DNA of 64,000 nucleotides from Alkaliphilus pronyensis (lineage in GTDB: Bacteria > Bacillota > Clostridia > Peptostreptococcales > Natronincolaceae): positions 1 to 64,000 of the forward strand of contig NZ_WBZC01000019.1 of assembly GCF_009017275.1 (NCBI RefSeq), given 5' to 3'. The notes below the pieces were generated by a model. It did not search any database and had not been told where the DNA came from. It saw only the letters and a program-made list of their open reading frames with translations. Shown in pieces: positions 30,285 through 64,000 of this stretch (position 1 is its first letter; each line of letters starts with the position of its first letter). A program made the position numbers and the translations under genes.

Positions 30285-30591
30285 TGCTCCACCTCCTGTA
30301 TGTATACATACAATTTTACTATTGTGTAGGCAAGTTGACAATAACAATTATTAATCAATACGAAATTGTAAAAAATTACTTTATCTTTAGAGGAGCTACT
30401 AACACTCCCACTACTTATGGGGCAGATAAGTGCCGCCAAGCTAGAAAGTAAGGGGAACTAAGTTTTTTAAAAATAGAAAAGTAATGAAGCTATATAACTT
30501 TGGTTTGACAAGGGTTTAGATTTAAATTAGAATAAAAATAATAAATAGCCATTGAATATATTTACAATCAATTAAATGGAGGGAGAGCCCT
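30285..30591. other. Divergent intergenic region with repeat copy 2
   Basis: This 307-bp gap separates the membrane protein from hpt. It contains the inverted dispersed repeat (30395-30439). Near hpt, TTGACA (30506-30511) is seen but no good -10 box at standard spacing. Nothing else was recognised. Confidence 0.4.
30395..30439 (-). repeat. Dispersed hairpin repeat, copy 2 (inverted)
   Basis: On the minus strand it reads TTGGCGGCACTTATCTG ... GGGAGTGTTAGTAGC, matching copies 1 and 3 at both ends. The hairpin loop region differs most (CCCC/GGG-type pairing retained). Confidence 0.8.
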
Positions 30592-52798: not shown

Positions 52799-55210
52799 AT
52801 GAAAAAAGTTGAGCTATTGGCTCCAGCAGGAGATTTTGAAGGGCTAAGGGCTGCCCTAGTAAATGGAGCAGATGCAGTATATTTAGGAGGAAAAGACTTT
52901 AGTGCTAGGGCATATGCTTCTAACTTTGATAGAGCTACAATTGCTGAGGCTGTAAAATATAGTCATTTAAGAGGTATGAAGGTATATGTTACCATTAATA
53001 CCCTTTTAAAGGATGTGGAGATAAATAAGCTATTAGATTATGTAGCTTTCTTATATGAAAATGATGTAGATGCACTAATAATACAGGACATAGGGGTACT
53101 GTCTTTAATTAGCTACGGGTTTCCGGACTTTGAGCTCCATTGTAGTACACAAATGACCCTTCACAATACCCCTGGAATTGAGGCTATTAAAAGCTTTGGT
53201 GTTAAAAGAGTTGTTGTAGCAAGGGAGTTGAATATAAAAGAAATCCAAGAAATATATAATAATACAGGTATGGAGCTTGAGGTTTTCATTCACGGAGCTC
53301 TTTGTGTATCCTATTCAGGCCAGTGCTTAATCAGTAGCTATATAGGAGGAAGAAGCGGTAATAGGGGTAGATGTGCCCAGCCCTGCCGAAGAAGCTATGA
53401 ACTATTGGGACAAAATAATAAAAAATTAAAGAAGGAAGCCTATCATATTAGTATGAGGGACTTAAATACAATAAAATATATAGACAAACTTATAGAAGGT
53501 GGAGTAGCTTCCTTTAAAATAGAAGGGAGAATGAAAAAGCCCCACTATGTAGCAGCAATAGTAAGAAGCTATAGGCAAGCAATTGATAGGTATTTAATAT
53601 CAAAGCAAATGATGGATGAAGAGAAGGTAAGGGATGAAATTGCACAGGTTTTCAATAGAAGGTTTACTAGAGGCTTTATATTAGAAAGCCCTAAAGAGGA
53701 AATTGTAAATATAGAAAAACCAAGTAATAGAGGAGTTTACTTAGGTGAAGTATTATGGGTAGATAAAGGAAGAAACACTATTAGGCTAAAGCTGGAGAAG
53801 CCACTGGCCGTAGGAGATGGAATAGAAGCTTTAACCTCTAGTGGTAAAGATGTAGGAGGAGCCATAACCACTATTACTATCAATAACAAAAAAGTACACA
53901 AGGCAGATAAAAATGAAACTGTAGAAATAGTGGTAAAGGGCAATGTAAACAAAGGAGATAAAATATTCAAAACCCATGATGCAGTGCTAACAAAGCAGCT
54001 TCAAGAAACCTATGAAAATAAGGATATTACAATTAAGCTTAAGGGTGAAATTACAATAGAGATAGACAAAGCCATAAAACTATATATATGGGATGAGCTA
54101 GGTAATGGAGCTTATCAGGAGTCAGAATTTATAGTTGAAAAAGCAATAAAGGCTCCATTAACAGAAGAGCGAATAAGGGATAATCTAAACAAACTGGGTG
54201 GTACACCCTTTGTATTTGAGTATATTAATATTAATTTAGAAAAAGGAGCTTCAGCACCTATAGCAACTATTAATGGACTTAGGAGAGGGGCTATAGAAAA
54301 GCTATCGGATATTAAAAGTAAGCATCACCCTAGAAAAATGATAAAGGAAATAGTAAGAAAGCCCTTTAGAATGCCGGTTTATAAGTTGGCAGAAGGAAAA
54401 GATATAAAAACTATAAAAACCTCCCTTAGGGTAGACACAATTAAGCAGTTAAAAAGTATTAATGCACCTACTATAGATAGGGTATATTACGGAGATTTAA
54501 ACACCCTAGATTTAGCAATAGATTTTTGTAAAGGTAAAGGCTGGAATATATTTTTTAGATCACCCAATATAGTGAAGGACAAAGATTATAATTATATTAA
54601 TGAGAAGCTAAAGCATCTAAAAATAGATGGTATTCTCGCAGGTGATATTGGTATGGTAAAAAATGCAATGGATCAATATAGTATTCCTGTTATCGCCGAT
54701 TACACCCTAAATCCTTTTAATAGCTATAGCCTAGATACCCTATTGGGTTTAGGGGTTACTGGAGTAGTTATCTCAACTGAGTTAGACTTAAAGTCCATAG
54801 GAGATTTACTTAGCTGTAGCTCTATGGAAATTGAAGTTATTGTCTACGGAAAGCTAATGGCAATGACTCTTGAATACTGTCCCTTAAATGATGTTGCTAA
54901 TTGCATTAACAGCTGTAACCAATGTAGCCATATACCCTACAGCTATAGATGGGGCCTAAGGGATCATAAAAATATGATTTTTCCAATTGCCAAGGACTTT
55001 TTAGGTAGAACAATAGTTTTAAACTCACAACCATTATTCATGCTGGATAAGCTAAAGGAAATAAAAAAGGTTAATCCACATAGGCTTCAAGTATCCATTA
55101 CTGATGAAGATACGGAGAAGATTAAAAAAATCCCCTTAAATATGGAGGGAACCACAAGGGATTTGCCAGTTAGCTTTACTAGGGGACACTATTTTAGAGG
55201 GGTAGAATAA
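52799..55210 (+). CDS. U32 family peptidase / rRNA hydroxylation-type protein (long form)
   Basis: The product has 803 residues. An N-terminal TIM-barrel U32 domain (VELLAPAGDFEGLRAALVNG ... HGALCVSYSGQCLISSYIGG, GRCAQPCR) is followed by a DUF3656-like region and a second U32-like segment with Cys ligands (YCPLNDVANCINSCNQC). The long form is related to E. coli RlhA, which hydroxylates 23S rRNA C2501, and to presumed collagenase-like peptidases. The Cys set suggests an iron-sulfur centre. ATG 52799 follows AAGGAAGG. Confidence 0.87.
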   Translation: MKKVELLAPAGDFEGLRAALVNGADAVYLGGKDFSARAYASNFDRATIAEAVKYSHLRGMKVYVTINTLLKDVEINKLLDYVAFLYENDVDALIIQDIGVLSLISYGFPDFELHCSTQMTLHNTPGIEAIKSFGVKRVVVARELNIKEIQEIYNNTGMELEVFIHGALCVSYSGQCLISSYIGGRSGNRGRCAQPCRRSYELLGQNNKKLKKEAYHISMRDLNTIKYIDKLIEGGVASFKIEGRMKKPHYVAAIVRSYRQAIDRYLISKQMMDEEKVRDEIAQVFNRRFTRGFILESPKEEIVNIEKPSNRGVYLGEVLWVDKGRNTIRLKLEKPLAVGDGIEALTSSGKDVGGAITTITINNKKVHKADKNETVEIVVKGNVNKGDKIFKTHDAVLTKQLQETYENKDITIKLKGEITIEIDKAIKLYIWDELGNGAYQESEFIVEKAIKAPLTEERIRDNLNKLGGTPFVFEYININLEKGASAPIATINGLRRGAIEKLSDIKSKHHPRKMIKEIVRKPFRMPVYKLAEGKDIKTIKTSLRVDTIKQLKSINAPTIDRVYYGDLNTLDLAIDFCKGKGWNIFFRSPNIVKDKDYNYINEKLKHLKIDGILAGDIGMVKNAMDQYSIPVIADYTLNPFNSYSLDTLLGLGVTGVVISTELDLKSIGDLLSCSSMEIEVIVYGKLMAMTLEYCPLNDVANCINSCNQCSHIPYSYRWGLRDHKNMIFPIAKDFLGRTIVLNSQPLFMLDKLKEIKKVNPHRLQVSITDEDTEKIKKIPLNMEGTTRDLPVSFTRGHYFRGVE

Positions 55211-55258: not shown

Positions 55259-56371
55259 GTGATTAAGCTGAAAATTACAGAGTTAGAAACCCCATGCTTG
55301 GTGGTGGATTTAGATAAGCTGGAAAAAAACATTGCTGAAATGCAACAGCTTGCAAATCACCATGGTGTAAAGCTATGGCCAATGATAAAAACCCATAAAA
55401 GTCATTACATAGTAGATAAGCAAATTAAAGCTGGAGCAGAGGGTATATTAGCAGCAAAGCTTTCGGAGGCTGAAAAAATGCTGGAGGCAAATGTAAAAAA
55501 GATAATGCTGGCATACCCAATAATTGGAGAAGGTAAGCTTAAAAGACTCATTGCCCTATCAAAAAAGGCTGAAGTCTATTGTAGTATCGACTCATTAATA
55601 TCTGCTGAGATATTAAATAAAGCAGGAATCGACTCCCAAACCCTGTTTAAATGTATTGTTATTATAGACAGTGGCTTAAATAGACTAGGAATTAAGCCAG
55701 AGGAAACTGCTAGGTTTGTTAAGAGCTTAAAAGAGCTGAGTAATCTTAAGGTGGTGGGTGTTGCAACCCATGGTGGCCATGTTTATGGTGCGGTAGATAG
55801 AGAGGGAGTAATAGAAGCAGCTAATCAAGAAATAATGGCTATAGAAGCCGCTGAAAAGCAACTGCTAGAGGAAGGAGTAGCCTGTGAGGTTGTTGCTATA
55901 GGCTCTAGCCCAACTGTAAAGGTAATAAATAATTATAGTTCAATTAAGCAGATTAGACCAGGGAACTATGTGTTTAATGATGCTGTACAAATGGCTTTAG
56001 GGGTAGCGAAGGAGGATGATTGCTCACTATTTGTTAGGGCAACAGTAATTAGCATACCTGAAGAAGGAAGAGCAATAATAGATGCAGGAAGCAAAATTCT
56101 ATGCCTCGATACTGGTGCCCATGGAAATACTAGCATAGTTGGCTATGGTAGAGTTAAGGGATTTGAGGAGATAGTAGTAAAGGGCTTGTCAGAAGAACTG
56201 GGAAGGCTACAGTATAATCCAAGCAAAATACAGCTACAGATAGGAGATATTATTGAGATAATACCTAATCATGCATGTACAGTGGCCAATATGGTGGATA
56301 GGATATATGGTGTTAGAAATAGGATGGTTGAAAAGGAGATATTAGTATCTGCTAGGGGTTTAGTTTATTAA
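55259..56371 (+). CDS. PLP-dependent D-threonine aldolase / D-serine dehydratase-like protein
   Basis: The product has up to 370 residues. The N-terminal alanine-racemase-type barrel has ETPCLVVDLDKLEKNIAEM and the PLP lysine in WPMIKTHKSH; GDIIEIIPNHACTVANM is the C-terminal metal-binding block (His, Cys) of the D-threonine aldolase/DSD family. It acts on a D-amino acid in the cytoplasm. The SD AAGGGAG (55253-55259) overlaps GTG 55259; the codon at normal distance is CTG 55268, so the start is uncertain. Next to a dipeptide epimerase and peptide transporter it fits D-amino-acid or murein-peptide breakdown. Confidence 0.83.
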   Translation: MIKLKITELETPCLVVDLDKLEKNIAEMQQLANHHGVKLWPMIKTHKSHYIVDKQIKAGAEGILAAKLSEAEKMLEANVKKIMLAYPIIGEGKLKRLIALSKKAEVYCSIDSLISAEILNKAGIDSQTLFKCIVIIDSGLNRLGIKPEETARFVKSLKELSNLKVVGVATHGGHVYGAVDREGVIEAANQEIMAIEAAEKQLLEEGVACEVVAIGSSPTVKVINNYSSIKQIRPGNYVFNDAVQMALGVAKEDDCSLFVRATVISIPEEGRAIIDAGSKILCLDTGAHGNTSIVGYGRVKGFEEIVVKGLSEELGRLQYNPSKIQLQIGDIIEIIPNHACTVANMVDRIYGVRNRMVEKEILVSARGLVY

Positions 56372-56419
56372 TTACGGGTGCTAAAACACCAAAACTAATA
56401 TACAATAGGAGGAAGCAAT

Positions 56420-57505
56420 ATGAAGATTAAAGATATTCAAGTTGGAAAGATTTCTGTTCCCTTAGTAAAACCCTTCAAAACTGCCCTAAGAACAGTTAAA
56501 TCCATTGAAGACGTTGTAGTTAAAATAACTACAGATACTGGACACGTTGGGTATGGAGAGGCTGCTCCTACTGCTGTAATTACAGGTGATACAACTGGAG
56601 CAATTATTGGTGCTATAAATGAATACATAAAGCCCCAGCTAATAGGCTTAAACATAGAAAACTTTGAAGAGGTAATGCTGAAGCTCCATAGCTCCCTAAT
56701 AAAAAACACCAGTGGTAAGGCTGCAGTTGACATAGCCCTTTATGACTTGTTTGGACAGCTACATAATGCACCCCTATACAAGCTTCTTGGAGGCTATAGG
56801 AATGAAATAATAACAGATATTACAATTAGTGTAAACGACCCAGATGAAATGGCTAAGGACAGTATAGAAGCAGTAGCAAGAGGCTATAAAACCCTAAAAA
56901 TAAAAGTAGGAAAGGATCCACAGAAGGATATTGAGAGAATTAAAGGAATTAGAAATGCAATAGGCTATGATATTAAGCTTAGGATAGATGCTAATCAAGG
57001 CTGGAGGCCAAAGGAAGCTATTAGTATTTTAAGAAGGATGGAGGATAAGGGTTTAGAGATTGAACTAGTTGAACAACCAGTATTAGCCCATGACTTTGAA
57101 GGGCTAAAGCTTGTAACAGACAATGTAGGCATACCAGTTTTAGCAGATGAAAGTGTCTTTTCACCAAGAGATGCATTGAGAATACTAGAAATGAGGGCTG
57201 CTGATTTAATCAATATTAAGCTAATGAAAACTGGGGGAATATATAATGCCCTAAAAATATGCTCTGTTGCAGAGGTATATAATGTAGAATGTATGATTGG
57301 CTGTATGCTAGAGAGTAAAATAAGTGTTACAGCAGCAGCCCATTTAGCAGGTGCAAAAAGCATAATTACTAAAATAGACCTAGATGGACCTTCATTATGT
57401 AGCCAAGACCCAATTAATGGAGGGGCAATTTTCGACGATTACAGAATTACAATTCCAGAAGAAAAAGGCTTAGGCTTTACAAATATTTCAGATGCCTTTT
57501 TTTAA
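56420..57505 (+). CDS. Dipeptide epimerase of the enolase superfamily (L-Ala-D/L-Glu epimerase-like)
   Basis: The product has 361 residues. The catalytic set of the MLE/Ala-Glu epimerase group is intact: KIKVGK (K160, K162), RIDANQGW (D190), VEQP (E218), ADES (D243) and NIKLMKTGG (K267), matching B. subtilis YkfB with a shift of one. LDGP near 321 helps bind the dipeptide. It should epimerise murein-derived L-Ala-D-Glu or related dipeptides. GGAGGAAGCAAT precedes the ATG. It lies 48 bp after the PLP enzyme and just before the sigma-54 activator. Confidence 0.88.
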   Translation: MKIKDIQVGKISVPLVKPFKTALRTVKSIEDVVVKITTDTGHVGYGEAAPTAVITGDTTGAIIGAINEYIKPQLIGLNIENFEEVMLKLHSSLIKNTSGKAAVDIALYDLFGQLHNAPLYKLLGGYRNEIITDITISVNDPDEMAKDSIEAVARGYKTLKIKVGKDPQKDIERIKGIRNAIGYDIKLRIDANQGWRPKEAISILRRMEDKGLEIELVEQPVLAHDFEGLKLVTDNVGIPVLADESVFSPRDALRILEMRAADLINIKLMKTGGIYNALKICSVAEVYNVECMIGCMLESKISVTAAAHLAGAKSIITKIDLDGPSLCSQDPINGGAIFDDYRITIPEEKGLGFTNISDAFF

Positions 57506-57546
57506 TAAAGAAAACGCAAGGGAAAAAAATTAAAGGATGAGTATAT

Positions 57547-59403
57547 ATGTTTATTAAAGATAGTTATGTAAAAGAGTTTACCGACATGATGTCTGAAGGC
57601 TTTATTTTTATTGATAACCTAGGGAAAATACAAATTTACAACAATAAGGCCAAAGAGATATTTGGAATAATATACAATCAAGGAATAGGACATAAGGCTG
57701 GCGTTATCAATAAAGGAGATATTGTTATAGTTGCAGATAACTGTCTAGGTAAAGATGATGGTGGACTTACCCCTAATGACTTAAAGGTGATGGGAATTGA
57801 TGATAGAAGCATTAAACACAATGATTCTATCGTTGGTATTGGAGTATTTGGAGAGTTTAATGGGAAGGCAAAATATAAATATCACAAACCATATGAAAAA
57901 AAGGGAATATTATCAATATCACATGAAATCCTTAACAAAACAATAAATGTTGTTATTGATTATAACAATAGAGTAATTAATATAACAGTGGATGAACAAG
58001 CCTTTGAAATGTCCTATGTAAATGCCATTGGTCATATGGTTATTTTAGATAAAGACTATGGTAATGTAAAATTCTATCAGGCTAAGGGCTATACAACCAG
58101 AGGAGAAGAAATAAATAATTTATTAAGGGGATACAGCTATAGGGCAAAAGGGAGAGATGTAGATACAATAGATGTTATAGGTAGAGATATATTCGAGATT
58201 CATAATAATAGTCCTACCATTAAGGAATTTTATGAAGCAGCAAAGGGTAAGGACATTAGCTATAGGGAAAAATTCACAGAAATAAATGGAAGACCAACTA
58301 TATGCACCTTAGAGGTTGTAAACAGTGGTGATAAAAGGGTAGGTGCAGCCCTTAAGGTGGAGGATATATCAGAGATTAAAAGGGTAATTAGAGAAAGGGA
58401 TGAAGCATTACTGAATCTAGAGGAGGCTGAGAAAAAGCTTAAGGAAGAAGAAGCACTATCAGAGGTGTTTCCAGAAGTAATTGGTGATAGTAAAGAAATA
58501 AGAAATGTTAAAAACCTTGCATATAAAGCATCAAAATCAAACTCCACTGTGTTGATTTTAGGAGAAAGTGGCACAGGAAAAAGCTTGTTTGCAAAGGCCA
58601 TACACAAAGCAAGTAAATATAGTCATAATCCCTTTATTCATGTAAACTGTGGTTCAATACCAGAGGCATTGCTAGAAAGTGAGTTGTTTGGCTATGAAGG
58701 AGGAGCCTTCACAGGGGCTAAAATCAGCGGGAAGGCTGGAATGTTTGAGTTAGCCGATGGAGGCACTATTTTTTTAGATGAAATAGGTGAAATTTCACCA
58801 GTATTACAAATAAAACTATTGCAGGTTTTACAGAATAAAAGCTTTTATAGGGTTGGTGGAAACAAGAAAATAACAGTTGACCTAAGAATAATTGTGGCAA
58901 CAAACAAAAACCTAGAAGAAGAGATGGTTAAGGGGAATTTTAGGGAGGACTTATATTATAGAATTAATGTTTTCCCAATTTGGATACCTCCATTAAGGGA
59001 TAGAAAGCAGGATATACATTCACTGGTATATTCAATGCTACCAAACATTTGTAGAAGAATTGGCTGCCAAGAAAAACGAATTTCAGGGGAAGCCCTTAGT
59101 ATGTTATCAAACTATCAGTGGCCTGGGAATATTAGAGAACTTGAGAACATACTTGAGAGGGCAGTAAATCTTGCCGAAGGTAATACTATTTTATCAACCC
59201 ACTTATCAATAGAACCTTCAATAACTAAAGAGAGAAAGATTAAAGAAATAAAATCATTAAAGGATATTATCGGTGAGGCTGAAGAAAAGGCTATTAGGGA
59301 GGTCCTTCTACTTAGTGGTGGAGATAAGAAATCTGCCATTAAGCTATTAAAGATAGGGAAAACCAGCTTTTATGAAAAAATGAAAAAATATCACATTGAC
59401 TAG
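57547..59403 (+). CDS. Sigma-54-dependent transcriptional activator with PAS-like sensor
   Basis: The product has 618 residues. A PAS-like sensor region covers about 1-275, with an unusual insert around 60-200, then a short coiled coil (280-305). The AAA+ domain has Walker A GESGTGKS (339-346), the sigma-54 contact loop GAFTGA (386-391) and DEIGEISP. A Fis-type HTH ends the protein (KKSAIKLLKIGKTSFYEKMK). It activates RpoN promoters from upstream dyads; the gene is directly upstream of a -24/-12 promoter for a peptide ABC transporter. The ligand may be a dipeptide or related metabolite, which is an inference. Confidence 0.93.
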   Translation: MFIKDSYVKEFTDMMSEGFIFIDNLGKIQIYNNKAKEIFGIIYNQGIGHKAGVINKGDIVIVADNCLGKDDGGLTPNDLKVMGIDDRSIKHNDSIVGIGVFGEFNGKAKYKYHKPYEKKGILSISHEILNKTINVVIDYNNRVINITVDEQAFEMSYVNAIGHMVILDKDYGNVKFYQAKGYTTRGEEINNLLRGYSYRAKGRDVDTIDVIGRDIFEIHNNSPTIKEFYEAAKGKDISYREKFTEINGRPTICTLEVVNSGDKRVGAALKVEDISEIKRVIRERDEALLNLEEAEKKLKEEEALSEVFPEVIGDSKEIRNVKNLAYKASKSNSTVLILGESGTGKSLFAKAIHKASKYSHNPFIHVNCGSIPEALLESELFGYEGGAFTGAKISGKAGMFELADGGTIFLDEIGEISPVLQIKLLQVLQNKSFYRVGGNKKITVDLRIIVATNKNLEEEMVKGNFREDLYYRINVFPIWIPPLRDRKQDIHSLVYSMLPNICRRIGCQEKRISGEALSMLSNYQWPGNIRELENILERAVNLAEGNTILSTHLSIEPSITKERKIKEIKSLKDIIGEAEEKAIREVLLLSGGDKKSAIKLLKIGKTSFYEKMKKYHID

Positions 59404-59422
59404 TTCGCACTACAGGAATCGC

Positions 59423-59549
59423 TCCGTAATTTCGGAATAAAGCTACTCTAAAAGCATTTTGGCATAAAATAGATGTGTAGAAGTGTTCTGAATAGGTAGC
59501 TGTTGGTAATTTGAATAAATAATAAAAAAATCAGTTCGAAAATTCGGAA
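59423..59549 (+). promoter_or_regulatory. Two upstream activator dyads for the sigma-54 activator
   Basis: TCCGTAATTTCGGAA (59423-59437) and TTCGAAAATTCGGAA (59535-59549) share 12 of 15 positions, with TYCG-N6-CGGA dyad symmetry. They are 112 bp apart and lie 177 and 65 bp upstream of the sigma-54 promoter. Location and symmetry suit binding sites of the adjacent activator. Confidence 0.6.
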
Positions 59550-59612
59550 GAGTAAACTTTATAACCTGCAAAATAGAGGTGCTAATTAGCCTATATACAA
59601 ATTAGTAGAAAT

Positions 59613-59628
59613 TGGCATGGTACTTGCT
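59613..59628 (+). promoter_or_regulatory. Sigma-54 (-24/-12) promoter of the peptide transporter
   Basis: TTGGCATGGTACTTGCT has GG (59614-59615) and GC (59626-59627) exactly 10 bp apart, matching TGGCAC-N5-TTGC with one mismatch. It lies directly downstream of a sigma-54 activator gene and upstream of the ABC transporter operon. Confidence 0.85.
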
Positions 59629-59655
59629 TTATAATAAGTCAGAATATTATGCAAA

Positions 59656-59700
59656 TTGGCGGCACTCATCTCCCCCTTAAGAAGCGGGAGTGTTAGTAAC
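59656..59700 (+). repeat. Dispersed hairpin repeat, copy 3
   Basis: TTGGCGGCACTCATC ... AAGCGGGAGTGTTAGTAAC, with CTCCC-c-CTT/AAG-c-GGGAG stem. It sits in the presumed untranslated leader of the transporter mRNA, about 17 nt after the expected transcription start. The rest of 59700-59865 holds no recognised element. Confidence 0.8.
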
Positions 59701-59865
59701 CTATGTGGGTGTAGATGCTGGAATGTCTCATAACTATAGTAAATTACCAAGACCATCAGTACTTTTATTAACAAAGGAAGAATAGAATTATTATATAAAG
59801 ATTAACCTATGAAGACCTTTTCAGTAAAGAGAGATTTAATAAAATATTGGAAGAGGAGGGTTAAA

Positions 59866-61722
59866 ATGAAAAAATTATTAGTCTTAATGTTAATACTAAT
59901 GTTAGCACTAACGGGTTGTTGGTCTGGGGGGACGGACCAACCAACAGATGGGGATGAAACAGGAGTTGAAGAGCCTAGTAGTGTACCAAAAGAGTTTACA
60001 TGGACCTATTCTGGAGAAATTACTACATTAAATTACCTAGTAACAGCTAGTACAAATGAATTTGGGGTTGCTGCTAACTTAGTAGATTCACTAATTGATT
60101 ATGACAGATATGGGGTTGTACAACCTGCTTTAGCGACAGAATGGACTACGTCAGACGATGGTTTAGTTTGGACATTTAAAATCCGTGAAGGTGTTAAATG
60201 GGTGACCCATGAAGGTATAGAATATGCAGAGGTTACAGCACAGGATTTCGTTGATGCTGCTGAGTACCTTCTAGACAGCACAAATGAGTCAAAAACTGCT
60301 AATATTTTCTATAGTGTTATTAAAAATGCCGAAGAGTACTATAATGGTGATATTACTGATTTTTCACAGGTAGGAGTAAAGGCAGTAGATAAACATACTC
60401 TAGAGTATACCCTTAAGCAACCAACACCATATTTCCTATCAATGCTTAACTACGTAGCATTCTTCCCAGTTAATGGTCAGTTTTTAGAAGAAGTAGGAGA
60501 TAGATTTGGTACTGATCACAAGAATTTCCTATATAATGGTGCTTTTATAATGGAAATATTTGAGCCACAAACTAGAAGAATTCTTGTGAAGAATGAAAAC
60601 TATTGGGATAAGGACAATATATTCCTTACTAAAATAAACTATCTATACAATAAAGAGTCTGCAACTCTAGCCCCAGAGCTATTTGCTCGTGGAGAAATAG
60701 ATTACGCAGCTATACCCTCATCAATTATTGATGAGTGGATGAAGGATTCTAAAAAGAAGGAAATGGTAAGACCTAATAGAACATCTTTCTATACTTATTT
60801 CTATGCACTAAACTTTGACCCAAAGTTTGATGAACAATATGAGCCAGACAACTGGAAGATTGCAGTTAATAATAAAAACTTCCGTAAATCCCTATTCCAT
60901 GCTTTAGATAGAAAAGCAGCTATGCTAACTGCAGAGCCTTATAATCCAGAACAAAAACTATCAAATACAATAACACCTAGAAATTTTGTTAGTATAGGTG
61001 GATCGGATTACACTCAAATTGGGAAGTTGAATGATTTCACAACTACAGATTCATTTAATAAAACTAAAGCTGTTGAGTATAAAGAAAAAGCTATGGAAGA
61101 GTTACAAGGAAATGCTAATTTCCCCGTTATAGTATATATGCCATATAATTCAGGATCAACTGAATGGGCTAACCGTGCTCAGGTCATAGAACAACAAATG
61201 GAGAATTTATTAGGAAAAGACTATATAGATATAGTTATCGCAGCAAAACCTCCTACAAACTTCTTGTCAGAAAATAGACGTAATGGAAATTATGCCTTCC
61301 TAGAAGCTAACTGGGGACCAGACTATGCCGACCCTGAAACATATACAGGTCCATTCTATCCAGGTGGGACTTATAACTTCCCTGAGTTTGTAGAAGGATA
61401 TACCGAAGCTAATGGAGAGAAAAGCTATACAAACTTAGTAGATACTGCCAAGGCAGAAGTTCTAGACATCGCAAAACGTTACGAGTTATTTGCTGACGCA
61501 GAAGCCTTCTTAATAGAAGAAGCCTTTGTAATACCTTATGCCCTTGGTGGAGGTGGGTATTCTGCTTCAAGATTAAATCCATTTGAGTCACAATATTCAC
61601 CATTTGGAGTTTCAGCTGAAAGATTTAAAGGGCAACATCTTCTAGAAAAGCCAATGAATACAGAACAGTATCATGAGGAAAGAGAAGCATGGGAAAAAGC
61701 ACGTGAGAAGGCTTTAAAGTAA
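59866..61722 (+). CDS. Peptide ABC transporter substrate-binding lipoprotein
   Basis: The product has 618 residues with a signal peptide and lipobox LALTGC. It is an SBP_bac_5 (DppA/OppA) type: ALATEWTTSDDGLVWTFKIR, GVKWVTHEG, AQDFVDAAEYLL and ALDRKAAML. It captures oligopeptides or dipeptides outside the membrane for the permease that follows. ATG 59866 lies after AGAGGAGGGTTAAA; the upstream frame from 59809 lacks this site. Confidence 0.93.
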   Translation: MKKLLVLMLILMLALTGCWSGGTDQPTDGDETGVEEPSSVPKEFTWTYSGEITTLNYLVTASTNEFGVAANLVDSLIDYDRYGVVQPALATEWTTSDDGLVWTFKIREGVKWVTHEGIEYAEVTAQDFVDAAEYLLDSTNESKTANIFYSVIKNAEEYYNGDITDFSQVGVKAVDKHTLEYTLKQPTPYFLSMLNYVAFFPVNGQFLEEVGDRFGTDHKNFLYNGAFIMEIFEPQTRRILVKNENYWDKDNIFLTKINYLYNKESATLAPELFARGEIDYAAIPSSIIDEWMKDSKKKEMVRPNRTSFYTYFYALNFDPKFDEQYEPDNWKIAVNNKNFRKSLFHALDRKAAMLTAEPYNPEQKLSNTITPRNFVSIGGSDYTQIGKLNDFTTTDSFNKTKAVEYKEKAMEELQGNANFPVIVYMPYNSGSTEWANRAQVIEQQMENLLGKDYIDIVIAAKPPTNFLSENRRNGNYAFLEANWGPDYADPETYTGPFYPGGTYNFPEFVEGYTEANGEKSYTNLVDTAKAEVLDIAKRYELFADAEAFLIEEAFVIPYALGGGGYSASRLNPFESQYSPFGVSAERFKGQHLLEKPMNTEQYHEEREAWEKAREKALK

Positions 61723-61740
61723 GTAAAAATTAAAATAAAT

Positions 61741-61782
61741 ATAAGCTATAAAGACTGTTTAATAACAGTCTTTATAGCTTAT
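61741..61782 (+). other. Perfect 19-bp stem between binding-protein and permease genes
   Basis: ATAAGCTATAAAGACTGTT (61741-61759) and AACAGTCTTTATAGCTTAT (61764-61782) pair without mismatch around TAAT. No T run follows, so it is more likely a 3' stabiliser of the binding-protein mRNA, or partial terminator, than a full terminator. This arrangement lets the binding protein outnumber the permease. Confidence 0.8.
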
Positions 61783-61859
61783 TAATAGCCTATAAAGATA
61801 CGTTATTAATCCTTTATGACTCTATTACAGGCTTGAAATACAAGTAGAGGGGGAGAGGG

Positions 61860-62804
61860 ATGTTAAAATATTCTATAAAGAGATTACTCCAATCATTGGT
61901 TACATTATTCATTATCATTACAATAGTATTCCTTCTTATGAGATTAATGCCAGAAGAGGGTTACTTTGGAGATGAATTTGATAAATTAGATGTGGCACAA
62001 AGAGAAGCTATCTTAGCAAGTATGGGTCTTAGAGATCCTATACATATACAGTTAGGAAACTTCTACAAGGATCTTTTTTCTGGTGATTTGGGAACATCTA
62101 TAATATACAGACCTAAAGTGCCTATTACAGAGATTATAGCAGATAAGCTACCCTATTCACTGTATTTTGGACTGGTTGCCATGGGCATATCTTTGTTGGC
62201 TGGTATCCCTTTAGGAGCACTTATGGCGAGAAGTAAAAACAAACTCTGGGATAAATTGGGTACAGGGTATATCGTGTTTATAAACGCGGTTCCGGCGGCG
62301 GTATACTTTCTATTTTTACAATTATATGTAACAGATATTTTTAAGCTGCCAATACTCTTTAGGCCTGACAAACCAGTTAGCTGGATACTACCTGCAATAT
62401 CAATGGCTTTAGGAAGCACAGCCCATTATGCAATGTGGATGAGACGTTACATGGTAGATGAAATTAATAAGGATTATGTTAGATTAGCAAGGGCTAAGGG
62501 TTTAAGGAATCAAACCATTATGTTAAAGCATGTTTTTAGAAATGCTTTTGTTCCTATGGCTCAATATCTGCCCACATCATTACTCTTTACAATAGCAGGT
62601 TCTATATATATTGAGTCACTATATTCAATCCCTGGTATGGGAGGCTTATTGGTAGATGTTATTCAAAGGCAAGACAATTCATTAGTACAGGCATTAGTAC
62701 TTATATTTTCTTCAATTGGTATTTTTGGATTATTTTTAGGAGATATACTTATGGCTATATTTGACCCACGCATTAATCTACAGAAAAAGGAGGGGGCTAG
62801 GTAA
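61860..62804 (+). CDS. oppB: Peptide ABC transporter permease (OppB/DppB-like)
   Basis: The product has 314 residues and six membrane segments. The binding-protein-dependent permease loop DYVRLARAKGLRNQTIMLKH and the final IDPRINLQ-like FDPRINLQKK are typical of OppB/DppB. It forms the channel with the next permease. AGAGGGGGAGAGGG precedes the ATG; its stop overlaps the next start (TAATG). Confidence 0.93.
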   Translation: MLKYSIKRLLQSLVTLFIIITIVFLLMRLMPEEGYFGDEFDKLDVAQREAILASMGLRDPIHIQLGNFYKDLFSGDLGTSIIYRPKVPITEIIADKLPYSLYFGLVAMGISLLAGIPLGALMARSKNKLWDKLGTGYIVFINAVPAAVYFLFLQLYVTDIFKLPILFRPDKPVSWILPAISMALGSTAHYAMWMRRYMVDEINKDYVRLARAKGLRNQTIMLKHVFRNAFVPMAQYLPTSLLFTIAGSIYIESLYSIPGMGGLLVDVIQRQDNSLVQALVLIFSSIGIFGLFLGDILMAIFDPRINLQKKEGAR

Positions 62805-63772
62805 TGGGTAGTAAGGCGATTAGTAAATTATCAGACGGAATAAGTCAAGACCTATTCGAGTTTGCAGGATACGATGAAGAAGAGGCAAAACGCGCTGGTT
62901 ATTCAAATTACTCCTATTGGCGCTCTACTTGGCAGGTGTTTATTAAAAATAGGGTAGCACTGGTTTTGCTAATATTGATGACTACGGTTTTAGTATTTAC
63001 ACTAATACAACCCTATTTACCAAATCAAAAATTACCTACAAAGATATATATTGATGAAAGTACAGGAATGCAGCTTTCAAACCATAAGCCAGATTCTGAA
63101 TTTTGGTTTGGAACAAACTCAATAGGTCAAGATATTTGGGCTCGTATATGGAGCGGAACCCGCACTTCACTATTAATAGGATTGGCAGTAGGGTTTTTTG
63201 AAGCCCTTGTAGGAATTACAGTTGGAGCCATGTGGGGATATATTAGACCCCTAGATAGACCGATTACAGAGGTTTATAATGTTATAAACAATGTACCAAA
63301 AACTATTATATTAATTCTTCTAACATATATTATGCGTCCTGGTTTAGGTACTATGATTTTTGCTATGTGCATGACAGGATGGATAAATATGGCAAGGTTT
63401 GTACGAAATCTAATAATAATTATAAGGGATAGAGAATATAACTTGGCATCAAAATGTCTTGGTACTCCAACTAGAAGGATTATAACCAAGAACTTACTTC
63501 CATACTTAGTTTCTGTTATTATGCTGAGAATGGCATTAGCTATACCCTTAGCCATTGGATATGAAGTGTTCTTAACCTATATAGGACTTGGATTACCAGT
63601 TAGTATACCATCACTTGGGAACTTAATTAATGAAGGAAGACTTTTAATGATGGCACCATCTCTACGTTATCAGTTGATTTTCCCAGCATTAGTTCTTTCA
63701 ATTATTACAATATCTTTCTATGTAATGGGTAATGTATTCTCTGATGCAGCAGACCCAAGAAACCATGTTTAG
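62804..63772 (+). CDS. oppC: Peptide ABC transporter permease (OppC/DppC-like)
   Basis: The product has 322 residues. It has an N-terminal cytoplasmic extension (about 45 residues) and six membrane segments. FWFGTNSIGQDIWARIWSGT is the OppC signature and NLASKCLGTPTRRIITKNLL the EAA loop; it ends DAADPRNHV. Its ATG overlaps the previous stop, so translation is coupled. Confidence 0.93.
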   Translation: MGSKAISKLSDGISQDLFEFAGYDEEEAKRAGYSNYSYWRSTWQVFIKNRVALVLLILMTTVLVFTLIQPYLPNQKLPTKIYIDESTGMQLSNHKPDSEFWFGTNSIGQDIWARIWSGTRTSLLIGLAVGFFEALVGITVGAMWGYIRPLDRPITEVYNVINNVPKTIILILLTYIMRPGLGTMIFAMCMTGWINMARFVRNLIIIIRDREYNLASKCLGTPTRRIITKNLLPYLVSVIMLRMALAIPLAIGYEVFLTYIGLGLPVSIPSLGNLINEGRLLMMAPSLRYQLIFPALVLSIITISFYVMGNVFSDAADPRNHV

Positions 63773-63783
63773 GAGGTGACATT

Positions 63784-64000
63784 ATGGCAAGCCCAAAGAT
63801 TAAGTTATCTATTAGGGACTTAGTAATAAAATTTAAGCTAAGAGGTCAGGTTTTAACTGCTATAAGGGAAGCTTCTTTAGATATATATGAAGGAGAAAGT
63901 CTAGCCATAGTTGGAGAATCAGGATCGGGAAAATCTGTATTTACTAAGAGCTTTATGGGTCTACTAGATGGTAATGGATGGATAGATTCAGGGAGTATTA
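63784..64000 (+). CDS. oppD: Peptide ABC transporter ATPase (OppD/DppD-like), cut by the window end
   Basis: The first 72 codons are present. The Walker A motif GESGSGKS is seen, with LVIKFKLRGQVLTAI and SLDIYEGESLAIVGE as in OppD/DppD ATPases. GGAGGTGACATT precedes the ATG. The rest of the gene and any OppF partner lie beyond the window. Confidence 0.92.
   Translation, partial: MASPKIKLSIRDLVIKFKLRGQVLTAIREASLDIYEGESLAIVGESGSGKSVFTKSFMGLLDGNGWIDSGSI

Follow-up and report, generated by a model that had tools for sequence, protein, structure and literature searches.

What does a sigma-54 promoter standing between an activator gene and an oligopeptide importer serve in Alkaliphilus pronyensis, and how far does the unit around it reach? 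The stretch analysed here, called the window below, comprises positions 1-64000 (64,000 nucleotides) of contig C11 (NZ_WBZC01000019.1, 107,907 bp), which belongs to a 3.06-Mb genome in 94 contigs that is 99.5% complete; the genes in question start at 55259. A first-pass annotation of the window had described a block ending at 64000, in which a D-amino-acid enzyme, a dipeptide epimerase, a sigma-54 activator and a peptide ATP-binding cassette (ABC) transporter would together serve sigma-54-driven recycling of murein peptides, perhaps those released during sporulation. These genes are present as described, yet the block does not stop at 64000; it runs on to about 74000 of the contig, all genes on the forward strand, and this continuation carries a second predicted sigma-54 promoter in front of lysA, the gene of diaminopimelate (DAP) decarboxylase. 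We propose, with a probability of roughly three in four, that the locus encodes a sigma-54 circuit for the catabolism of murein (cell-wall) peptides.

The first promoter, TGGCATGGTACTTGCT, lies at 59613-59628, with GG at 59614-59615 and GC at 59626-59627, in the 405-bp gap between the activator gene (57547-59403) and the gene of a peptide-binding lipoprotein; these are exactly the positions given by the first-pass annotation. The second, TGGCACAGTTATTGCT, lies at 69159-69174 on the forward strand, in the 284-bp gap between an NlpC/P60 gene and lysA. In both cases GG-N10-GC sits inside an element resembling TGGCAC-N5-TTGCW. The two dyad copies that had been noticed upstream of the opp promoter, between 59423 and 59549, are well described as TYCG-N6-CGRA and form putative activator sites, the distal one being TCCGTAATTTCGGA at 59423-59436 and the proximal one TTCGAAAATTCGGA at 59535-59548; a weak third dyad with one mismatch, at 59404-59417, is another putative site. 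The lysA gap holds exact dyads at 68970-68983 and 69080-69093, plus a one-mismatch copy at 68991. The two units are of near-identical geometry, the proximal dyad starting 78 bp (opp) or 79 bp (lysA) ahead of the -24 element and the two exact dyads of each unit standing 112 bp (opp) or 110 bp (lysA) apart. A recent origin of one promoter as a copy of the other is unsupported (61% global identity, alignment score 2.2 standard deviations above shuffles).

Across the genome, the strict pattern TTGGCAYN5TTGCW occurs 14 times, the opp site being one of them, and its reversed form not once; RpoN itself is encoded by a single gene (PF04552, 224.6 bits, 1 match). Loose -24/-12 matches with two mismatches number 23 in the window against 23.5 expected, no excess, and are uninformative alone; sites with one mismatch also fall inside genes, at 59024 and 70656. 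The exact dyad is found at 13 sites in the genome, four of which belong to the opp and lysA promoters, and none of the other nine is on a contig bearing a strict -24/-12 site. A tighter form, TYCGNAAAANCGRA, has two occurrences, both before lysA. Genome-wide totals of the dyad are not in excess of the reversed pattern (13 against 215, and 2 against 8 for the tight form), because reversal turns CG into GC; only the clustering of the dyads, and not their totals, is used as evidence here. An earlier guess at the dyad, TTCCG-N5-CGGAA, fitted more poorly (two mismatches allowed: 10 and 9 matches, expectation 0.7 and 2.1) and was replaced once the lysA upstream region had been taken into account.

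Conservation of the dyads in relatives, proposed at the outset as a check, was borne out. Among 60 genomes, its own included, the activator has matches at E<=1e-90 in 35, a list that includes paralogues matching in the C-terminal part only; full-length matches (starting at residue <=13) outside its own genome amount to 26 loci in 25 genomes. A -24/-12 site scoring at least 12.5 of 15 follows the activator in 22 of these 26, counted to 60 bp past the start of the next open reading frame (ORF) and with no shuffle control, the loci without it being L055, L059, L068 and L070. The first 700 bases of the activator-downstream regions, together with our own region and the lysA gap, hold 32 exact dyads (13 + 19) against 0.36 expected in Markov resamples, and decoy spacers between the half-sites in the same regions gave none at 2-5, 7-9 and 11, two at 10 and one at 12.

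A scan with the sensor domain alone, by one peptide pattern and over 84,980 species, each represented by a single genome, is non-exhaustive and returned 49 named loci, including those of Alkaliphilus peptidifermentans, A. transvaalensis, Anaerovirgula, Natronincola, Geosporobacter, Lutispora, Sedimentibacter, Tissierella and Anoxynatronum. The unnamed loci (L049-L076) and the named ones (L083-L131) share organisms, and the locus counts are from the named set only. As controls we picked by hand 20 stretches of 20 kb from the genomes of five relatives, four per genome; a gene was counted in a family when half of the reference matched at 38% identity, or at 45% for components of the importer. An exact dyad combined with a -24/-12 site stands in 31 of the 49 loci and in none of the controls, and 43 loci, again with none of the controls, have such a unit if one dyad mismatch is allowed, L116 among them with a minus-strand site only and no target gene; no unit of any kind is seen in L106, L110, L113, L114, L126 and L130. 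Decoy spacers of 3, 4, 5, 7 and 8 gave no units in the named loci, and a spacer of 9 gave one. The gene that follows the exact unit is lysA in 20 of the 31 loci, spmA in four, the epimerase in one and another gene in two, with none called in four. Merging the activators at 80% identity leaves 39 clusters, of which 31 have lysA, 25 an exact unit and 34 a unit with one mismatch (forward strand only). As judged by eye, 25 of the 49 loci share a three-site array, in which a pair of dyads separated by 19-20 bp is followed by a third, 32-122 bp closer to the promoter. In Tissierella (L103, L108), lysA and opp each stand behind a unit of their own, as does spmA in L108 (at most one dyad mismatch), and in L094 the epimerase gene is inside the sigma-54 unit. 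A. peptidifermentans has the activator, the dyads and the lysA promoter in common with A. pronyensis. Two further observations concern the family itself. Lutispora thermophila has two activators (L089, L117), each near a lysA. The activator, lysA and neighbours of L104, titled Lutibacter, a Bacteroidota name, group with clostridial ones, and the title may be a misnomer.

The company kept by the activator is the second line of evidence. The most constant partner is lysA (37/49), followed by LD-carboxypeptidase (22/49), OppD (19/49), OppB and the binding protein (18/49 each), the epimerase and an SpmB-like protein (17/49 each), an SpmA-like protein (16/49), an M20 hydrolase (12/49), NlpC/P60 and a dicarboxylate symporter (8/49 each), M55 D-aminopeptidase, a beta-lactamase-fold hydrolase and alanine racemase (5/49 each), DapF (4/49), a D-cysteine-desulfhydrase-family enzyme (2/49), and the pyridoxal-phosphate (PLP) enzyme and the amidohydrolase of the present block (1/49 each); every one of these families is absent from all 20 controls.

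In A. pronyensis, the murein-peptide theme of the first-pass annotation is strengthened by three enzymes encoded beyond the window. LysA (69209-70534) scores 461.2 bits against a cut-off of 297.9 in TIGR01048 and is the one protein of the genome to match DAP decarboxylase at E<=0.001. The SH3b-NlpC/P60 protein (68100-68924) aligns its Y-x-W, DCS, RDA and SH3b tyrosine with the dipeptidyl-peptidase VI chains 3npf and 3pvq, and thus has the residues of a YkfC-type gamma-D-Glu-L-diamino-acid endopeptidase; Y-x-WGG...DCSG and RD[AS] are also present in all eight relatives' NlpC/P60 proteins compared. Such positions define the YkfC subfamily, as set out in passages of PMC2954226. No evident signal sequence was seen at its N-terminus by reading; therefore it is likely to act in the cytoplasm, as in B. 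subtilis. The S66 LD-carboxypeptidase (71875-72804) matches PF02016 and PF17676 above cut-off. Inside the window, the YkfB-like dipeptide epimerase (56420-57505) has as nearest solved chain 1jpm, an L-Ala-D/L-Glu epimerase (E 7e-116), with DLD aligned to DFD, and DxD is kept in 17 of 17 orthologues of at least 60% identity (12 by pattern, five by reading). The peptide ABC importer is found in the same block: the binding lipoprotein (SBP_bac_5, 59809-61722), OppB-like (61860-62804) and OppC-like (62804-63772) permeases were named by family search, and the OppD-like ATPase (63784-64833, crossing the window end at 64000) and the OppF-like one (64826-65770) from position and a look at the sequence.

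The circuit we have in mind would start with the activator, whose sensing domain, a PAS domain with an insert, may respond to a murein peptide or to DAP itself, and which would bind the array of TYCG-N6-CGRA dyads and drive transcription from both -24/-12 promoters through RNA polymerase-sigma-54. As judged from gene spacing, the first promoter would serve the Opp-type importer and the YkfC-type endopeptidase, and the second the DAP decarboxylase, a pair of Gate-domain (SpmA/SpmB-like) membrane proteins (70615-71241 and 71256-71792), the LD-carboxypeptidase and the M20 hydrolase (72804-74000), the last three again named by family search. Imported stem peptides would lose their D-Ala to the S66 enzyme, NlpC/P60 would cut the gamma-D-Glu-DAP bond to release L-Ala-D-Glu and DAP, the YkfB-like epimerase would convert L-Ala-D-Glu to L-Ala-L-Glu, and LysA would decarboxylate DAP to lysine, the overall products being Ala, Glu and DAP, then lysine. 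This lysine may feed a lysine-fermentation operon on contig C1 (L140, C1:1-14000), which lies behind a paralogue of the activator and a -24/-12 site, TGGCACAGTTATTGC, at L140:9914 on the minus strand. The operon encodes 3,5-diaminohexanoate dehydrogenase (kdd, 280 bits, cut-off 200), lysine 2,3-aminomutase (kamA, 632, cut-off 525) and both subunits of lysine 5,6-aminomutase (alpha 939, cut-off 600; beta 423, cut-off 280); the genome can probably ferment lysine, and lysine derived from DAP could thus be fermented. Because that operon has a sigma-54 site of its own, nutritional use of murein peptides seems at least as likely as wall recycling; murein peptides remain the probable substrate, as first suggested, and recycling becomes only one option.

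The activator has an AAA+ sigma-54 interaction domain (PF00158, 228 bits) with GAFTGA in its translation and a Fis-type helix-turn-helix (PF02954, 22.1 bits, cut-off 22). Its best NCBIfam match is PrdR, the activator of proline reduction (NF041552, 383.8 bits, best stretch residues 204-616), yet this is far under the equivalog cut-off of 795 and we do not call it PrdR. The sensor region (residues 1-300) was predicted at a mean predicted local distance difference test (pLDDT) of 85.9. A PAS fold is formed by residues about 4-49 and 208-275, according to VIA comparison with the cytoplasmic PAS of CitA (Z 15.0, root-mean-square deviation (rmsd) 1.8, 100 aligned) and with DhaR (Z 12.5, rmsd 2.0, 97 aligned) and to Pfam PAS_9, which all 37 family members match at E up to 1, the present activator falling under the curated cut-off (18.7 of 27); these two methods are the basis of the assignment, and Foldseek returned no match for the whole sensor at E<=0.001. 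The PAS domain is split by a beta-rich insert of about 155 residues that in prediction folds alone (pLDDT 92.5, predicted template modelling score 0.89) and carries invariant H, D, DD, Q and K positions. Searches gave no clear solved relative of the insert (profile search, best E 0.38; Foldseek, best E 0.035; VIA, best Z 5.3, rmsd 3.4, 98 aligned), and a new fold is not claimed. We infer that the insert may bind the inducer. It is a tentative extension of the murein-peptide circuit, which we hold to be possible and no better than that, that the activator is a dedicated murein-peptide/DAP sensor with the insert as its ligand device and that the Gate-domain pair transports DAP, lysine or peptides derived from murein.

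Several observations weigh against the murein-peptide circuit. The named loci are not independent of one another or of the unnamed set, and the controls come from five hand-chosen genomes. Part of the data had already served to refine the dyad motif when it came to be tested, so that further support has to come from the named loci (some of them from the same organisms), the decoy spacers and the controls. The importer is patchy, with binding-protein orthologues (E<=1e-100) in our genome and four of 59 relatives. Activator orthologues in L055 and L059 (62-63% identity) lack both lysA and a promoter unit in their surroundings, and their genomes (G029, G051) supply eight of the 20 control stretches; 12 of the 49 named loci are without lysA, some of them on short contigs. 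Both the epimerase (267.5 of 500) and the LD-carboxypeptidase (169.5 of 378, PRK11253) fall under NCBIfam equivalog cut-offs. No -24/-12 site precedes the PLP enzyme, the epimerase or the activator, a bare GG-N10-GC at 55200 being the one thing seen, and we therefore place only the opp and lysA units of this genome under sigma-54; of the set first assigned to sigma-54, the transporter keeps its place, with promoter and putative activator sites conserved in relatives, and the PLP enzyme and the epimerase do not.

The presence of DapF in four of the 49 loci also counts against the circuit, since it would fit DAP or lysine synthesis, and with it comes the strongest of the rival explanations, a sigma-54-controlled biosynthetic branch in which the activator senses lysine or DAP and sets lysA (and dapF in some species), the peptidases and importer salvaging extra DAP. 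The single lysA of the genome would indeed have to cover lysine synthesis as well, should the cell make lysine. Such a branch leaves no place for the LD-carboxypeptidase, OppB, the epimerase, NlpC/P60 and M55 (22, 18, 17, 8 and 5 of the 49 loci), and we regard it as rather unlikely. Still less probable is a general use of peptides containing D-amino acids, of no murein specificity, in which the amidohydrolase, racemase-family enzymes and M55 act on mixed D-peptides: a D-aminoacylase-like enzyme is present in the block, and alanine racemase, M55 and the D-cysteine-desulfhydrase-family enzyme recur in some loci as counted above, yet that amidohydrolase is in a single locus, the most constant partner is a DAP decarboxylase by family model, and NlpC/P60 has L-Ala-gamma-D-Glu-binding residues. 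A sporulation-linked unit recovering peptides from the cortex or the mother-cell wall, suggested by the SpmA/SpmB-like pair in the operon, is very improbable, as a second such pair lies elsewhere in the genome (L141, C78:21000-29000) and E. coli, which forms no spores, has a Gate-domain pair of the same kind beside iadA; nothing was found that ties the unit to sporulation, though no search aimed at spore-specific promoters was made, and that part of the first-pass annotation is unsupported.

Compared with known systems, the murein-peptide circuit would differ from ykf-dpp of B. subtilis in its control by sigma-54 and a dedicated enhancer-binding activator, in having DAP decarboxylase as its most constant partner, and in its Gate-domain pair, M20 hydrolase and variable gene order; the M55 D-aminopeptidase of five loci recalls DppA. 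The yjiH-yjiG-iadA genes of E. coli likewise put a Gate-domain pair beside the gene of an isopeptide hydrolase, and differ in that no sigma-54 activator, lysA or LD-carboxypeptidase is annotated in the 10-kb stretch. In E. coli K-12 (4558354-4560680) the product of iadA is isoaspartyl dipeptidase, which makes this a further case of such a pair being associated with unusual peptide bonds. In B. subtilis, ykfABCD lies beside dppB-E, YkfA being an LD-carboxypeptidase, YkfB an epimerase and YkfC an endopeptidase (PMC2954226), and the likeness extends to the peptide ABC importer, the LD-carboxypeptidase, the gamma-D-Glu-DAP endopeptidase and a putative L-Ala-D/L-Glu epimerase. Sigma-54 in Clostridia is known for fermentation and Stickland reactions, and the main text of Nie et al. 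2019 (PMC6615313) describes 39 groups of regulons of sigma-54 and enhancer-binding proteins for amino-acid fermentation in Clostridiales, which resemble ours in the combination of sigma-54 and an activator with putative sites upstream of a catabolic operon. That main text does not contain lysA, diaminopimelate, lysine, murein or epimerase, and its Table 1 has no similar target; a word search of a 2025 sigma-54 comparison (PMC12316311) found 'murein' once and no instance of the words lysA, diaminopimelate, peptidoglycan and oligopeptide. Among the open-licence papers listed, in part only a fraction of the matches, we found no link between sigma-54 and DAP decarboxylase, murein recycling or lysine, which is a weak negative; we did not find this combination of known enzymes and a known regulator class described.

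The murein-peptide circuit would tie clostridial sigma-54 to cell-wall peptides as a nutrient; its operator is clear, the three-site array recurs, and dozens of genomes offer themselves for testing it. If it is true, wall debris would be a regulated food source of peptide-fermenting anaerobes, with DAP feeding lysine fermentation, and the sensor domain and the membrane pair would gain testable roles. Should the sensor-and-carrier extension also hold, a membrane pair known by name from spore maturation would acquire a physiological role, and in Clostridia a food chain would lead from the walls of dead neighbours, by way of DAP, to the fermentation of lysine. Regarding the origin of the importer, OppB of this genome groups, without clear branching order, with sequences from Lutispora, Tissierella and a Clostridium, and the activator and LysA are sister to those of A. 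peptidifermentans, which suggests that the opp block may have been gained by transfer.

The remaining genes of the block are less telling. The PLP enzyme (55259-56371; PF01168 and PF14031, alanine-racemase-N/D-serine-dehydratase family) had been compared with D-threonine aldolase; its best solved match is the D-threo-3-hydroxyaspartate dehydratase 3wqc (E 8e-41), whose PNHAC it also has, ahead of the D-threonine aldolase 4v15 (5e-33), and among NCBIfam models the D-3-hydroxyaspartate aldolase BhcC comes first, far below its cut-off (160 bits, cut-off 690). Of the 49 loci, only that of A. peptidifermentans has it at the cut used; there U32 comes first, followed by the PLP enzyme, an ORF of 141 aa, the epimerase and the activator. 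The gene is thus present as first noted and is peripheral, standing upstream and outside the conserved part of the system. The D-aminoacylase-like amidohydrolase (65889-67271, by family search) and a class-A beta-lactamase-fold hydrolase (67293-68072; 126.9 bits against a cut-off of 200) lie between OppF and NlpC/P60.

Between 54900 and 64000, Rfam gave a single match, mir-231, at 24.7 against a gathering score of 50; no tandem repeats were detected. Shuffled sequence held more sigma-70 promoter-like sites than the real one and about the same number of terminator-like sites, and neither kind was used. The genome has 14 strong activator-type matches, the present activator included, and a strict sigma-54 site on the minus strand at C11:83302. 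In L084, a UppP-like undecaprenyl-diphosphatase gene (213 bits, cut-off 217.5; L084:8951-9781, minus strand) is divergent from the activator, and 276-aa genes occupy the same place in L050-L054, the family having been assigned in L084 only. Lastly, a 45-bp hairpin piece at 59656-59700 (forward strand), between the sigma-54 site and the binding-protein gene, has a copy at 30395 on the minus strand and, counting itself, matches the genome at 41 places or more (40 of 115 candidates scored in a first look); five further copies are part of a longer element of about 130 bp with two hairpins, resembling a small non-autonomous insertion element.

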